Positions 2,873-9,667 of a stretch of 33,719 nt of DNA are shown here, in pieces (within the stretch, counting starts at the first letter, position 1; each line of letters starts with the position of its first letter). Both the position numbers and the translations under genes were made by a program. The notes below the pieces were generated by a model, which saw nothing but the letters and a program-made list of their open reading frames with translations, did not search any database and was not told the DNA's origin. The DNA comes from Bacillota bacterium (GTDB lineage Bacteria; Bacillota; Dethiobacteria; DTU022; UBA8154): positions 1 to 33,719 of the forward strand of contig JAAYFF010000013.1 in NCBI GenBank assembly GCA_012728375.1, given 5' to 3'.

Positions 2873-3994
2873 ATGACTGGAATAGCTGGCGCTGGCAATT
2901 GCGCCACGCTCATGAATCCGTTGGATTCCACTTGCCCGGTGCGCAAACAAGCGGTGCCAGTTTCTCAGGAACTGCTGAGGTCAAAGCATGATATGGAGGA
3001 CCCACTTGATGAAGAAGAGGACTCACCGGTACCCGGCATTACCCATCGCTACCATGACAGGGTATTATTTCTGGTTACGGATCAATGCAGTATGTATTGT
3101 CGTCACTGTACCCGAAGAAGATGGGCGGGAAGCACGAACAGGCATTTACCCCAAAAGTGGGTGGACAATGCCCTGGAATATATTCGCAACACTCCTCAGG
3201 TTCGGGATGTACTGATATCCGGAGGGGATCCCTTCTGCCTTAACGAAAACAAATTGGAATATATTCTCCATAATTTAAAACGTATCAAACATGTAGAAGT
3301 GATTCGCATCGGCACCAGAACTCCGGTGGTTTTGCCCCAGCGGATTACCGGAGACCTTGTCGGGATGTTGAAAAAATACCATCCCCTCTGGATAAATACT
3401 CATTTCAATCACCCAAATGAAATAACACCGGAAGCCGTTAACGCTTGCGCCAGGCTGGTGGATGCCGGGATACCCCTGGGTAATCAGAGTGTGCTTTTAA
3501 AAGGTGTAAACGACTGCCCTATTATTATGAAAAAACTTCTGCACAAACTTGTTCAAATGCGTGTAAGACCTTATTACTTGTATCAGTGTGATCTTTCTGA
3601 AGGAATAGAGCACTTCCGCACGTCTGTTTCCAGGGGAATAGAAATAATGGAGCTGCTGCGCGGACATACATCAGGCTTCGCAGTACCCACATATGTAATT
3701 GACGCTCCGGGTGGAGGAGGCAAAATCCCCATAAGCCCTCAATACCTCATTTCCCAATCCCAGGATAAGGTTATCCTGCGCAATTATGAAGGTGTTATTA
3801 CAACTTACAGCGAACCGCAGGATAAAATCAGTGAATGTATGACGTCATGCAGGCTTTGCGACGAACAAGACTGCAAAGAACAGGCCGGTCTAGGCAGGTT
3901 AATTAACGATGAAACACTGAGCCTTATCCCGGAAAACAACTTGCGTGTTCAGCGCAGAAAACAGTTCGCGGAGGTGGTAAACGAATCAGCATGA
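2873..3994 (+). CDS. ablA: Lysine 2,3-aminomutase, N-terminal deletion and frameshift
   Basis: Radical-SAM/PLP enzyme that converts L-lysine to L-beta-lysine, here the first step to the osmolyte N-epsilon-acetyl-beta-lysine. The open frame (373 residues) has the radical-SAM cluster motif CSMYCRHC, the long KamA signature [16 protein letters not shown], the PLP-lysine loop APGGGGK, and C-terminal zinc-type cysteines. Family members are about 410-420 residues. The true N-terminus is visible in another frame: from an ATC at 2827-2829, placed 9 nt after GGAGG, the sequence reads [20 protein letters not shown], then WRWQLRH near 2910. There it collides out of frame with ATLMNPLD. About 37 residues of the usual N-terminal helical region are missing. 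The 2873 ATG used here lacks a good SD. The gene overlaps ablB by ATGA. I regard it as probably inactive or decaying; a truncated active enzyme is less likely. Confidence 0.88.
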
Positions 3995-4890
3995 GCGCCT
4001 GCAAAAAGTATTATTTGCCAAAAAGGCTCCAATATGACCAGTTACTTTTTTCCGAGCAAGACCCTGAAAATAATGCTAAAATTTTGCTGGATTTTTATAA
4101 TAAAAGGCTTAAATTATTGGAATATAATAGCCTAAACTTGGCTGGTCTGGATAACCTTCTTTTAAAGACAGCCATGAAACATAATTTGGAAAAGGTACTG
4201 ATAACTGCCAGCGTGGACGACTGGGAAAATTTTTTGTCGCAGGGTTACGTTTTGGAATGCCTGAACAAATTTTATTTCAGCGGAAAACCCGGTTTCCACA
4301 TGTCAAAGTTTTTGTCTGCGTCCAGGCGACAAAGCAGCAATCCAGCAGAAGCGGACCGGATTTTGCAAATGGTATTGCAAAAAAGTGTTACAATCCCGCA
4401 TGCACTGCCGGAAGGATATACAGTGCGTCCGTGCCGCGATGAAGATATCCCGGCAATGGTGCAGCTTTTTACCCGGGTGTTTTCCACATATCCCAGTCCT
4501 GTTTATGATCCGGCTTATTTATTCCAGACTACGCATACAAACAGCTATTATTTACTGCTTATCAATGATCGTAAACAGATTGTCAGTATCATCTCAGCTG
4601 AAATAAATAAACGCTATAGCAATGCGGAAGTGACTGATTGTTCAACTTTACCTGAATACAGGGGCAAAGGTTTTATGTCCGCCTTGCTGGCAGCCTTAGA
4701 AAAAGAGATAAAGAAAAGGGGAATTACAAACCTCTACAGCATAGCCAGGGCGACTTCTCCAGGCATTAACACTGTATTACGACGGCATGATTACACTTAT
4801 GGCGGCAGGTTTATTAAAAACTGCAATATCAGTGGAGGCTTTGAAGATATGAACCTTTGGTTTAAGCAACTAAATCATTGGCAGTATTGA
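3991..4890 (+). CDS. ablB: Beta-lysine N6-acetyltransferase
   Basis: GNAT-fold acetyltransferase (299 residues) that acetylates beta-lysine to N-epsilon-acetyl-beta-lysine, a compatible solute. The N-terminal half is typical of AblB ([20 protein letters not shown] region). The C-terminal GNAT domain runs from about residue 140 ([18 protein letters not shown]) and includes the acetyl-CoA-binding stretch [18 protein letters not shown] and the later [15 protein letters not shown]. The start codon overlaps the ablA stop (ATGA), the usual ablA-ablB coupling. It is intact although its partner ablA is damaged, so if ablA is dead it has no local substrate supply. Confidence 0.9.
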
Positions 4891-4987: not shown

Positions 4988-5569
4988 ATGAAAATAGCGG
5001 TAATTATCACAGATATGGTTGAAGATTTTATAAGGATGGACAGGCCTTTGCCTGTTGGAGAAGAAGGCTTTAAAATTATTCCCAAACTGCAAAAATTAAT
5101 AGGAATTTGCCGTAAAAAGTCTATACCGGTTATCTTTGCCAACGATGCTCTCATGCCGAATGATTTCCTGTTTAAATCCCGCATGAAGCCTCACGGAATT
5201 AGAGGAACAGCCGGAGTACAGATAATTGACGAACTAAAGCCGCAGGACTCCGATCTGATCATACAGAAAAGACGTCTTAGTGCCTTTTTTAAGACAGACC
5301 TTGACATTACCCTCAGGGAGTAGAAAATTGACACAATCGTCCTGGGAGGTGTGGCTACCGAGGCCTGCGTTTTGTCAAGCGCATATGACGGTATTTCTCA
5401 TGATTTCAAGGCAATTGTGCTTGAAGATTGCTGTGCATCACGTTTCAGGCAAACTCACGAACATATCATCGCGGTATTGAAGGTAAGCCCGCTCTATCCT
5501 CTGCTCAGGGTGATGACCCTGGCTGAACTTGTTAACTCTTTGCATAAAGAAGATGTACAAGGAGAATAA
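4988..5569 (+). pseudogene. Isochorismatase-family cysteine hydrolase, in-frame amber stop
   Basis: Cysteine hydrolase of the isochorismatase/nicotinamidase superfamily, about 190 residues if read through. The putative catalytic triad is visible: Asp9 (IITDMVEDF), Lys94 (LIIQKRRLSAF) and Cys127 (GGVATEACVLSSAYDG). A TAG codon at 5321-5323 interrupts it in the same frame, between the Lys and Cys strands, so neither half keeps all three residues. The two parts join without a frame change, which points to a nonsense mutation. TAG ends other genes nearby (DUF4321 at 5822-5824, tex), so reassignment is unlikely. A good SD (AAGGAG) precedes the ATG. The exact substrate cannot be told from sequence. 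It lies 6 bp upstream of the DUF4321 gene, probably in one operon. Confidence 0.85.
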
Positions 5570-6007: not shown

Positions 6008-6478
6008 ATGAAGCTCCCCCTTCTTCAGTGGCTGCTGCAAGGCATCCCGGAATGCCTTGCCCTTGTTTATCTGGCAACTGTGCTGGCAGTGCAAAAACCG
6101 GAAACGGGTAAGATAATCTTTATGGGCATTATTGATGCAGTAATAATTTACCTTATCCGCCTGCTGCCGCTCACCTTTGGAGTACATACAATTCTGCAAA
6201 TACTTGTCATAGCCTTTCTGCTTTATCTCCTTTTTAAAGTAACCTTCGGCAAGAGCCTCTTTTCCGCTCTGATCGCTATTGTCACTCTGTCTGTTTCGGA
6301 AATGATATTTTTTACCCTTTTTATGGCGCTTGTAGACCTCTCCTTTGAGAAGTTTTCGAAAAATATTTTTTTATATATTCTCGGCGGCTGGCCCCACGTT
6401 ATCCTGCTGTTCATCCTCGCCCTGACTATAAACAGAAAACAGCAAAAAACTAGTGCTCTCAAGAAGACTTTTTTTTAA
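6008..6478 (+). CDS. Receptor-like integral membrane protein, copy 1
   Basis: A 156-residue protein with about five hydrophobic segments and no soluble domain. It shares motifs with the next gene across its whole length: LLQGIPE near the N-terminus, IRLLP-x-x-FGVH in the middle, and GGWP-x-x-ILLF-x-LALTINR at the end. I infer from memory of related genomes that this fold resembles the N-terminal membrane sensor half of AgrC-like GHKL kinases in Peptococcaceae, here without any histidine kinase. It ends shortly after the last membrane segment with a Lys-rich tail. Its position upstream of agrB and agrD fits a role in peptide sensing, export or immunity, but function is not established. The SD is weak (GAGTGA/AAGGA just before ATG). 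Confidence 0.75.
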   Translation: MKLPLLQWLLQGIPECLALVYLATVLAVQKPETGKIIFMGIIDAVIIYLIRLLPLTFGVHTILQILVIAFLLYLLFKVTFGKSLFSALIAIVTLSVSEMIFFTLFMALVDLSFEKFSKNIFLYILGGWPHVILLFILALTINRKQQKTSALKKTFF

Positions 6479-6712
6479 AATCCTCGCCCTTGCAGCTAAG
6501 CGCTGCCTTTCCCACTTTCTCTTTTTTTGCACCTCCTAAGACCTAAGATGCGGTTTCCTAAAACCATTTTATAAACTCTTTTTCCCTGAAATATTTTTTA
6601 AAAATTTACTCTTCTTTATAATTTTTATTTGTTTAGGAAGGATTATCCAGTTTTATGTCGAAGAAGCTTTTATATCAGCAACATGTTACCAAAAATGGAG
6701 TGACTCGAAAAT

Positions 6713-7180
6713 ATGAAACTTCCATTTCTCTTATGGCTGTTGCAAGGCATACCGGAAAGCCTCGGCCTTGTCACACTGGCGATGGCGCTCTTGAGGGAAA
6801 AACCCGCGATCCGCAAAATACTCCCCCTTGGCGTGATTCATGCAGTGATCATGTATGGCATCCGCCTTTTACCCCTTGTCTTTGGAGTGCACTCCATTTT
6901 TTCAATGTTTGTGATTGCAATCCTGCTTAATCTGTTTTTAAAAACTCACTTTAGCAGGAGCCTGCTCTCTGCTCTGATCGTCATAATTGCCCTCGGTGCC
7001 GCTGAAACCGTTTTTGTTACTCTCATACTTTCTTTAACAAACCTTTCTTATGAGCAGTATGCTGAGAATATGTTTTTATACATTGTTGGCGGCTGGCCGC
7101 AGGTTATCCTGCTTTTCTTCCTCGCCCTGACCATAAACAGATGGCAGGACAAACGCCGCAACTTGAAAGAGGATGCCTGA
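6713..7180 (+). CDS. Receptor-like integral membrane protein, copy 2
   Basis: A 155-residue paralogue of the protein at 6008-6478. It has the same length and membrane topology, with matching MKLPFLLWLLQGIPE start, GIRLLPLVFGVHSI centre and IVGGWPQVILLFFLALTINR end. Even the sequence before the start is alike (gagtga-c/t-tc 8-16 nt before each ATG), so the pair looks like a tandem gene duplication that has since diverged. The stop overlaps the agrB start by one base (TGATG), so this copy is translationally coupled to agrB. No kinase or response-regulator domain is attached. Proposed role, as inference only: receptor, accessory or immunity component for the autoinducer made by the next genes. 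Confidence 0.78.
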   Translation: MKLPFLLWLLQGIPESLGLVTLAMALLREKPAIRKILPLGVIHAVIMYGIRLLPLVFGVHSIFSMFVIAILLNLFLKTHFSRSLLSALIVIIALGAAETVFVTLILSLTNLSYEQYAENMFLYIVGGWPQVILLFFLALTINRWQDKRRNLKEDA

Positions 7181-7827
7181 TGACGAGATATCTAGGGGAG
7201 GGAATCGCCCGACATTTGGGCCGAGCAACAGGGCTCAACGCGGAAGACATGGAGGTGGTGGCCTATGGCTTGGAGTACCTCCTCTCCGCGGGGCTGGGGA
7301 TTTTACTTACGCTTTTAGCTGCCTTTTTGCTGGGGCTTTTGCCGGAAACTCTAGCCTTGCTTGCCTGCTGGATCCTTGTGCGCCGCCTGGCCGGGGGAGC
7401 GCACTGCTCCACCCTCTGGCGCTGCGCAGCCGGCAGCTGTTTCTCTGCAATTGCAGCAGTTCTCATATCACTCTTTGCTGCGAAGAGTGTGCCTGTATAC
7501 CTCTGGGCAGGTGCGGCAACAATTTGGGCTCTTTGGGCCACCTGGAGGTGGGCGCCGAACAACAGCAAAAAACCGGTGCGGGATCCGGTCAGGCGTAAGC
7601 TTCTGCGCCGCCGGGCTTTGATGGTTGAACTTTTCCTGGGCGTGGCCTTCCTTCTTCTCTCCCTGAACAACAGCGAAATGCTGCGGAAAATGGCTGCCGC
7701 AGGTGGAGGCGGGATCGCCTCAGCCGCGCTGATGATCTCCCCGGCAGGTCTTTTCATTGTAAATAAATTTGATAATTTTTGCAATTTTTTACTAACTTTA
7801 TTTAACAAGGAGGTGAAAATGCAATGA
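7180..7827 (+). CDS. agrB: AgrB-type autoinducer-processing membrane protease
   Basis: Polytopic membrane cysteine endopeptidase that trims the C-terminus of an AgrD precursor and forms the thiolactone. The signature is RRLAGGAHCSTLWRC: the catalytic pair is His75 and Cys82 (H-x6-C, equivalent to His77/Cys84 of Staphylococcus aureus AgrB). Hydrophobic segments flank this site on both sides. The start at 7180 (SD-like gaaagagg 7-9 nt upstream, TGATG overlap with the previous gene) is preferred to an in-frame ATG at 7141, which lies inside that gene. The C-terminal end (NKEVKMQ) overlaps the agrD start by ATGA, and the strong agrD SD (AAGGAGGTG) lies within its last codons. The protein is 215 residues, within the normal AgrB range. 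Confidence 0.93.
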   Translation: MTRYLGEGIARHLGRATGLNAEDMEVVAYGLEYLLSAGLGILLTLLAAFLLGLLPETLALLACWILVRRLAGGAHCSTLWRCAAGSCFSAIAAVLISLFAAKSVPVYLWAGAATIWALWATWRWAPNNSKKPVRDPVRRKLLRRRALMVELFLGVAFLLLSLNNSEMLRKMAAAGGGGIASAALMISPAGLFIVNKFDNFCNFLLTLFNKEVKMQ

Positions 7828-7958
7828 AAAGAACCCTTATCTGGTTGGCCGGAGTCGCGGTCATGTTGCTGACCATGATCGCCTCTGTCGGAGCGGCCTC
7901 TGCCTGTTCTTGGATGTATTATGAACCAGAGGTGCCGGCAAAACTGCGCGGAGAGTAA
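7824..7958 (+). CDS. agrD: AgrD-type cyclic lactone autoinducer precursor peptide
   Basis: A 44-residue peptide starting MKRTLIWLAGVAVML. It has a hydrophobic or amphipathic leader (residues 1-27), then Cys28-Ser-Trp-Met-Tyr-Tyr-Glu-Pro-Glu-Val-Pro, ending AKLRGE. This matches the cyclic-lactone autoinducer family pattern of a Cys followed some residues later by an aromatic or Q/E-P-E-x-P recognition tail. By analogy with the S. aureus AgrD tail (DEPKTP), the predicted cleavage lies after Tyr32, giving a five-residue ring CSWMY closed on Cys28; this is inference. The gene overlaps the agrB stop (ATGA) and has a near-perfect SD (AAGGAGGTG, 7 nt from ATG). It is followed after 23 nt, with no terminator, by the GGDEF/HD-GYP gene. 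Confidence 0.9.
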   Translation: MKRTLIWLAGVAVMLLTMIASVGAASACSWMYYEPEVPAKLRGE

Positions 7959-7981
7959 GAAAACGTTGAGGAGTTGTGGGG

Positions 7982-9667
7982 ATGCAGGAATGGCAGCGGG
8001 AGAGAAAAGAAAAACTGGCTGATTTAACGTTGGGAGCACATATTATTGCTTACCTGATCGCTGTTGCTGTCTTTATTTGCAGCAAACCTTTACATATTAA
8101 TCATCTGAACAATTTATATAATGCTACAATAAAAATAAGCAGCATCCTTTTTCCCGCTGCTACCTTCATTCTGCTGGATGTTTTCTTCCTGTTGCACAAA
8201 GGGCGCAGCCTTGCTGACATCTGGAATGTCGCCAAGCACCTGGCCCTTTTCTTGCTGATCACTTTGGTTTTTTTGTATAATGGAAAGGACTTGACATCAG
8301 GCAGCCTTTATCTGTTGCCCGTTGTCCTTTCCAGCCTTACCCTGGGCCGCGGCTGGGGGCTGGCCTTTGCCGCAGCTGCCAGCGGTTGCCTCGTTGCGCT
8401 GACAGGAATCTTTACAACAACCGCCTTCACCCAGCGGATTGAGATGCCCTTTGTTTTCAGCGCTCTTTTTTTCCTGGCAGCCTGGTTTTTGGGTGGGATC
8501 ATTGAAATTGAAAAGCAAACCACAGTAAAATTGGCCAGAATAGCCAATGAAGACGGCCTGACAGGCTTGGCCAACCACCGCTTTTTTTACGAAAGGCTAA
8601 AAAAAGAGGTAGAGATCGCCCTAGCAAATAACCGGCCCCTTTCCCTGGTCTTCCTGGATATTGATTTTTTTAAAAACTACAATGATACGTTCGGGCATCA
8701 GCAGGGAGACTTGGTCCTTCGTGAACTGGGAAAACTTCTACAGGGAGTTCTCCCAGCAGATACTTTCCTCGCCCGCTACGGAGGGGAGGAATTTGCCGTA
8801 ATCCTTCCCGCTTTACAGCTGGAAGAAGCAGCCGAAGTCGCTCGGAAACTACACCAGGCGGTGGCAAATCATGCTTTCCCCGGAGAAAACTGCCAACCTT
8901 TTTCTAAACTGACGATTTCCGCCGGAGTAGCCACTCTTCCAGACCACGCCAAAAACGTCCAGGAACTTGTGGATGCCGCCGATGAAGCTCTTTACAGCAG
9001 CAAATGGACCGGCCGAAACAAGGTGCGCTGTTACCTGGCAGTCTTGGAACGCTTGAGCCGTTCAGCAAAGAAAAACGACCTCGTGCTCATTGAGTCACTG
9101 CGCACACTGATGACTGTTATTAACGCCAGAGACAGGTACACTTACGGCCATTCAGAGCGGGTCGCCTACTATGCGGGAAAGATTGGAGAAAAACTGGGGC
9201 TCAGCCTAGACGAACTGCGACTTCTGGAGTACGGTGCCTTCCTGCATGACGTGGGGAAACTGGAAATCCAGCGGGAGGTTTTAACCAAAACAGGAGAGCT
9301 TTCCAAAACGGAATGGGATTTTGTCCGCCAGCACCCCCTCTGGGGAGCGGAAATCCTTAAACCAATAAAAGCCTTGCAACCCGTTATCCCTGCAATAATG
9401 CACCACCATGAAAACTATGACGGTTCAGGATACCCGGATGGGCTTAAGGGTGAAGAAATTCCTTTTTTTGCCAGAATATTACGGGTTATCGACAGCTTTG
9501 ATGCCATGACCACCAACAGGCCATACCGCAGGGCGCTTTCCAAGGTAAAAGCCCTGGATGAAATTGCCTTGTGCAGCGGCCGGCAGTATGACCCCCAAGT
9601 AGTGGAAGCCTTTCGCGAAACCCTGACTGAAACCGGCAAGACAATTTCCTTGCTGGATTATATTTAA
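7982..9667 (+). CDS. Membrane GGDEF and HD-GYP cyclic-di-GMP protein
   Basis: A 561-residue bifunctional-looking c-di-GMP enzyme. Residues about 15-175 form roughly six membrane segments with no recognised sensor family. The GGDEF domain (about 185-350) has DGLTGLANHRFF and an intact GGEEF active site at 267-271; the RxxD inhibitory site expected just upstream reads PADT, so it appears to be missing. The HD-GYP domain (about 365-555) has the HD pair at 422-423 (AFLHDVGKLEI), HHHENYDGSGYP and the downstream RVIDSFDAMTTNRPYR. Both synthesis and hydrolysis of c-di-GMP are therefore plausible. Start at ATG 7982 (SD GAGGAG, 8 nt) is preferred to GTG 7976. Placement 23 nt after agrD suggests its membrane domain or expression is tied to the peptide signal. 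Confidence 0.95.
   Translation: MQEWQRERKEKLADLTLGAHIIAYLIAVAVFICSKPLHINHLNNLYNATIKISSILFPAATFILLDVFFLLHKGRSLADIWNVAKHLALFLLITLVFLYNGKDLTSGSLYLLPVVLSSLTLGRGWGLAFAAAASGCLVALTGIFTTTAFTQRIEMPFVFSALFFLAAWFLGGIIEIEKQTTVKLARIANEDGLTGLANHRFFYERLKKEVEIALANNRPLSLVFLDIDFFKNYNDTFGHQQGDLVLRELGKLLQGVLPADTFLARYGGEEFAVILPALQLEEAAEVARKLHQAVANHAFPGENCQPFSKLTISAGVATLPDHAKNVQELVDAADEALYSSKWTGRNKVRCYLAVLERLSRSAKKNDLVLIESLRTLMTVINARDRYTYGHSERVAYYAGKIGEKLGLSLDELRLLEYGAFLHDVGKLEIQREVLTKTGELSKTEWDFVRQHPLWGAEILKPIKALQPVIPAIMHHHENYDGSGYPDGLKGEEIPFFARILRVIDSFDAMTTNRPYRRALSKVKALDEIALCSGRQYDPQVVEAFRETLTETGKTISLLDYI

Follow-up and report, generated by a model that had tools for sequence, protein, structure and literature searches.

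The window (the whole 33,719-nt stretch of DNA that was analyzed) carries a block of five genes on the forward strand, in which the genes for an agr-type peptide signal lie between two small five-transmembrane (5-TM) proteins and an enzyme of c-di-GMP turnover. The features are as follows:

6008..6478, + strand: putative 5-TM sensor protein copy 1, stand-alone and without a kinase; 58% identical to copy 2; profile A1 1.5e-52
6713..7180, + strand: putative 5-TM sensor protein copy 2, stand-alone; stop codon shares 1 nt with the agrB start; five long helices in the AlphaFold2 (AF2) model
7180..7827, + strand: agrB, AgrD-maturing membrane peptidase; Pfam AgrB 6.9e-31
7824..7958, + strand: agrD, autoinducing peptide precursor; TIGR04223 1.8e-10; predicted thiolactone ring CSWMY before YEPEVPAKLRGE
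7982..9667, + strand: membrane GGDEF/HD-GYP enzyme with about six TM helices; Pfam GGDEF 5.1e-46, HD_5 2.3e-39; AF2 model

A preliminary description of this DNA had copy 2, agrB and agrD overlapping by 1 to 4 bases, with the enzyme gene 23 nt further on and no terminator between, and we obtained the same layout. The stop codon of copy 2 and the agrB ATG share 1 nt at 7180 (TGATG), the agrB stop and the agrD ATG share 4 nt at 7824 (ATGA), and the 23-nt gap between the end of agrD at 7958 and the enzyme ATG at 7982 contains a ribosome-binding-like stretch (GAGGAG) and no terminator-like site; the genes are presumably cotranscribed. The starts in the ORF list differed for AgrB (7141, longer) and for the enzyme (GTG at 7976), but the homologues favored 7180 and 7982. 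The agrB start was also set by the TGATG overlap, and that of the enzyme by its opening residues, MQEWQ, which are conserved among the homologues. No Rfam family was matched in the window.

The AgrB protein had the catalytic His and Cys (GGAHCSTLWRC) at a spacing of seven, and H77 and C84 of S. aureus AgrB have the same spacing. AgrD scored 40.7 bits against TIGR04223 (cut-off 19) and 18.6 bits against the Pfam AgrD family, which is under the cut-off of 22.7 for that family; it had a Cys at the Cys/Ser position of the ring and an acidic, Pro-containing tail. The precursors of the relatives followed the pattern [C/S]xxxx[YH][EDQ]Px.P, with four variable residues after the ring Cys/Ser. Two systems of the same genus differed in the ring (CSWMY vs CTVMY) and had a constant tail, as would be expected of specificity types. 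The ring size of the window peptide is predicted from an alignment with staphylococcal AgrD. In the AgrD of three other loci (L027, 4543-4674; L040, 3041-3172; L079, 6218-6349) a Ser replaces the ring Cys, and a lactone is therefore predicted instead of a thiolactone.

Agr peptides are known to act through the AgrC kinase and AgrA. The preliminary description had seen neither of the two in view, and this held genome-wide. A whole-genome search of the assembly (2.38 Mb, 96.5% complete) identified a single AgrB, and no LytTR (AgrA-type) protein was matched in this 96.5% complete genome. There was no convincing AgrC-type GHKL kinase in the genome either; two weak GHKL (HATPase_c_5) matches were rejected as AgrC since they belong to ordinary HisKA/HAMP kinases, and no agrC/agrA pair thus lies elsewhere in the assembly. 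AgrC combines a polytopic sensor and a GHKL kinase in one protein; in this genome the sensor domain occurs as stand-alone copies. Possible receivers of c-di-GMP in the genome were one c-di-GMP-I riboswitch and one PilZ/YcgR-type protein. A search of phage and plasmid collections for AgrB gave no match.

The 5-TM proteins of the window matched no Pfam family, and their relatives yielded only stray weak matches; the CBO0543 family was rejected at 18.2 bits against an NCBIfam cut-off of 35. The single window sensor sequence, searched against genome contigs, gave no match. With a sensor profile, the search across the phylum found two kinds of protein, stand-alone ones of about 150-190 aa and longer ones of about 440-500 aa, and all five of the long frames examined carried a GHKL/HATPase domain. 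The long frame that was scanned with Pfam (L080) had SPOB_a and GHKL domains, with a Response_reg-LytTR regulator adjoining and agrB nearby, and is by these domains of the AgrC-AgrA type. A sensor HMM of the GGDEF type, built without the row from the GHKL locus, detected the N-termini of the fused GHKL kinases at 2e-19 to 3e-22, while the best reversed decoy reached 0.13 and the best other ORF 0.12. In the reciprocal search, an HMM of the fused AgrC-type kinase N-termini found copy 2 at 4.1e-26 and copy 1 at 1.1e-23 (best reversed decoy 0.095). Since even the best reversed decoy reaches only 0.13, the kinship of the sensor with the fused kinases is not an effect of composition. The AF2 model of copy 2 was a confident five-helix protein (pLDDT 89.8). 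Because of the reciprocal HMM matches to the fused-kinase N-termini and this confident model, the pair in the window most plausibly represents the sensing half of a receptor of the AgrC type, with the kinase missing. Searches of the PDB with the profiles of the sensor and of the enzyme TM domain gave no relative. Foldseek and VIA-align matches to the sensor model were weak and to unrelated helical proteins (best Z 5.9), and therefore no fold was assigned. Tandem sensor copies, as at 6008-7180 of the window, recur in unrelated lineages (L026/L025, L117, L109, L145, L136), which suggests hetero-dimers or divergent specificity.

The enzyme begins with a 6-TM domain that is PilS-like in Pfam (2e-6) and has six helices in the AF2 model, which for the full enzyme was of moderate confidence (pLDDT 69). 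Its GGDEF motif reads GGEEF, in agreement with the GG[DE]EF signature, and the allosteric I-site RxxD is absent (PADT). The HD-GYP motif is complete (HDVGK ... HHENYDGSGYP; HD + HHExxDGxGYP). Among the relatives, the HD-GYP motif was intact in all 44 with full sequence while GG[DE]EF was retained in 27 of 43, the remainder having GSDEF or worse; for this reason hydrolysis of c-di-GMP is probably the main and conserved output. The GGDEF domain may be active or regulatory depending on the lineage, and as some members of the family have a degenerate motif the net activity may vary; in the window enzyme both domains look competent. A longer GGDEF/HD-GYP type of about 690-770 aa, usually paired with the sensor, was noted at L031, L032, L073, L075 and L027 (6165-8442). 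It has a C-terminal MEDS domain in L032 (Pfam), and in L032 and L027 a Spo0E-like gene comes next, which hints at a link with sporulation.

Conservation of the agrD-GGDEF linkage in relatives had been proposed as a check in the preliminary description, and we found the linkage to be conserved. In the search of the order, AgrB was present in 18 of 60 relatives, and 21 AgrB places were obtained, that of the window among them. At 13 of these the order sensor-agrB-agrD-GGDEF/HD-GYP was found in one direction (window, L024, L025, L026, L027, L028, L030, L034, L035, L037, L038, L039 and L041; L035 is counted although its contig begins inside agrB and the sensor is out of sight). Two places have agrBD oriented divergently from the sensor and GGDEF/HD-GYP genes, which are paired there (L031, L032). 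In L040 the enzyme is replaced by a hybrid kinase that has the same TM domain. Contig ends truncate two further places (L029, L036), and the last three are of other types (L033, L042, L043). The gaps between agrD and the enzyme gene were mostly below 100 nt among the relatives, and the outer flanks of the block were mostly unlike between loci. Sensor and AgrB were present together in 17 of the 18 AgrB genomes and in 0 of the 42 others (Fisher 4.6e-14). The pairing of sensor and enzyme was also found across the phylum: in a sample of 56 places, picked by sensor score and hence biased, a GGDEF/HD-GYP gene adjoins the stand-alone sensor at 23, in 19 families.

A neighborhood like this could be due to chance or be an inherited block with no functional tie. 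The hisS gene is also near the block in the nearest relative, and part of the synteny is therefore inherited. On the other hand, the block recurs in unlike contexts in 19 families of the phylum, and the window bacterium's own genome of 2.4 Mb has 12 HD_5 genes, so that (assuming ~2,400 genes) an HD-GYP gene would be met by chance at about 0.5% per neighbor. Since the genes adjoin repeatedly throughout the order and the phylum despite these odds, this is not chance, and we regard an explanation without a functional tie as very improbable. The peptide-signal genes, the small membrane sensor and the c-di-GMP enzyme are kept as one unit in the window bacterium and in many distant relatives.

The same sensor domain is found elsewhere fused to a kinase, or beside a separate GHKL, HisKA or hybrid kinase or a GGDEF/HD-GYP enzyme. 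The other partners in the 56-place sample were TM-linked HisKA/hybrid kinases (8), HisKA kinases (7) and separate GHKL kinases (about 17, frequently accompanied by LytTR); two kinds of partner occur together at some places, and L109 is cut inside the enzyme. At three loci in the class (L040, L078, L079) a TM domain of the window type (~41% identity) stands on PAS-HisKA-HATPase-REC kinases, and in family f6 the gene order is HisKA kinase-sensor-agrB-agrD. Among the 107 sensors placed in a tree, every GHKL or fused row fell on one side of a branch with an SH-aLRT of 91 (a branch that is not starred), and GGDEF and HisKA partners were mixed on the other side. The starred branches alone force at least nine changes of the GGDEF label, and by this tree GGDEF and HisKA partners were swapped repeatedly on that side. 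Because sensor-GGDEF pairs exist also without agrBD in view (L073, L075), it is the sensor that stays constantly with the enzyme. We also noted at L078 a frame (4994-5149, G093) that opens AgrB-like and closes AgrD-like, as if an internal deletion had taken most of agrB; the sensor and the hybrid kinase are retained there, and an intact copy (L079) is present in the same genome.

We propose that the block encodes a split-receptor variant of agr, in which the peptide is sensed by the stand-alone sensor and the output is c-di-GMP turnover and not a two-component cascade; we put the probability of this reading at roughly 0.7. It draws on the gene order and its conservation, the homology of the sensor, the exchange of outputs, the intact HD-GYP motif and the lack of AgrA and AgrC, all of them features of sequence. 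AgrB would cut and cyclize AgrD into a small thiolactone (predicted ring CSWMY) that exits the cell. Outside the cell the peptide would be bound by the 5-TM sensor (copy 2 and/or copy 1), and the peptide-bound sensor would contact, within the membrane, the 6-TM domain of the co-encoded enzyme. The long helix after TM6 would relay the signal and switch the c-di-GMP activity of the enzyme, most likely HD-GYP hydrolysis, and high density would thereby change, and probably lower, c-di-GMP. The locus suggests that a peptide signal can control c-di-GMP without the usual kinase and DNA-binding regulator. A wider proposal is that kinase-free peptide quorum sensing is widespread in the Bacillota and that the 5-TM module serves exchangeable membrane outputs as their shared adaptor, in the window by switching a c-di-GMP enzyme directly within the membrane; we consider this slightly better than an even bet.

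Two routes for the peptide had been suggested beforehand, through the membrane part of the enzyme or through the small membrane proteins. The results support this interpretation and, of the two routes, favor the small proteins as the receptor: these share homology with the sensor part of AgrC-type kinases, and they are found next to GGDEF/HD-GYP genes also at loci with agrBD divergent (L031, L032) or not in view (L073, L075). Alternatively, the peptide could be bound by the 6-TM domain of the enzyme itself, with the 5-TM proteins assisting only as co-receptor, chaperone or modulator. In line with this, the close TM subfamily (A4, E <1e-70) was confined to agr loci or contig ends, the TM domain of the window type was kept when the output was swapped to a hybrid kinase, and relative to the nearest relative the TM domain (65% identity) was more variable than GGDEF (77%) and HD-GYP (81%), as expected for a ligand-facing part. 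However, it is the small protein and not the TM domain that is common to the kinase-fused AgrC-type receptors and the GHKL- and HisKA-type loci. PilS/DUF4118-like TM domains are moreover general; a distant form of the enzyme's domain also occurs without agr genes, and coupling of the domain to agr is therefore not obligatory. We thus hold the enzyme to be an unlikely primary receptor.

The 5-TM proteins might, on the other hand, serve AgrB in processing, export or immunity, with the enzyme controlling peptide production or merely cotranscribed with it and the peptide acting elsewhere. Peptide export commonly involves small accessory membrane proteins, and the sensor gene overlaps agrB. An AgrBD pair without AgrC and AgrA is also known from agr1 of C. 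difficile (PMC8534292). This explanation does not fit well with the sensor-GGDEF/HD-GYP pairs that persist with agrBD divergent or out of view, with the sensor being elsewhere the N-terminal domain of GHKL kinases, or with a genome that has no other AgrC or AgrA, and we judge it less probable still than reception by the enzyme.

Compared with known systems, the split-receptor variant proposed here would be agr-like on the signal side and RpfR-like on the output side, the AgrC kinase and AgrA being the two agr features that are lacking. It shares with staphylococcal-type agr (AgrBDCA) the His/Cys pair of AgrB, the Cys ring and acidic EPEVP tail of AgrD, and a sensor homologous to the N-termini of AgrC-type GHKL kinases in other genomes surveyed. 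It differs in that the sensor is without a kinase, the genome is without LytTR and the output is a membrane GGDEF/HD-GYP enzyme. In Xanthomonas, RpfC/RpfG links the quorum signal DSF to HD-GYP hydrolysis of c-di-GMP by a phosphorelay from the kinase RpfC to a REC domain; the output is alike, but the window system has neither phosphorelay nor REC. In Burkholderia, DSF acts on RpfR (PAS-GGDEF-EAL), and a quorum signal thus reaches a GGDEF-containing enzyme without a kinase (PMC6361424). Unlike the window system, RpfR is a single Gram-negative protein with a fatty-acid signal, a soluble PAS receptor and EAL in place of HD-GYP. Clostridial agrBD without agrCA (C. difficile agr1, PMC8534292) likewise has no neighboring agrC/agrA, but the window operon supplies its own stand-alone sensor and c-di-GMP enzyme. 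In C. difficile, agr affects the transcription of c-di-GMP genes (PMC3754575).

Since AgrBD alone is already known, the new part is what replaces AgrC/AgrA. Among open-licence papers, a scope outside which most subscription journals and preprints fall, we found no earlier description of an operon that combines AgrBD with a GGDEF/HD-GYP enzyme and an AgrC-type sensor devoid of a kinase, and in a 2026 review the passages located on GGDEF proteins and quorum signals mention RpfR alone. If correct, the proposal would mean that Gram-positive lineages can couple population density to a second messenger with no phosphorelay in between. It would also point to candidate receptors for other orphan AgrBD loci and reveal a receptor of modular build, with interchangeable sensor and output parts.

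Upstream of the block, the window has an isochorismatase-like cysteine hydrolase frame (4988-5569) with one in-frame TAG at 5321-5323, after which the same frame continues to 5569; a pseudogene, an assembly error or recoding are all possible. It is preceded by a lysine 2,3-aminomutase gene and a GNAT acetyltransferase gene (2873-4890) that overlap by 4 nt, a pair resembling ablAB (N-epsilon-acetyl-beta-lysine osmolyte).
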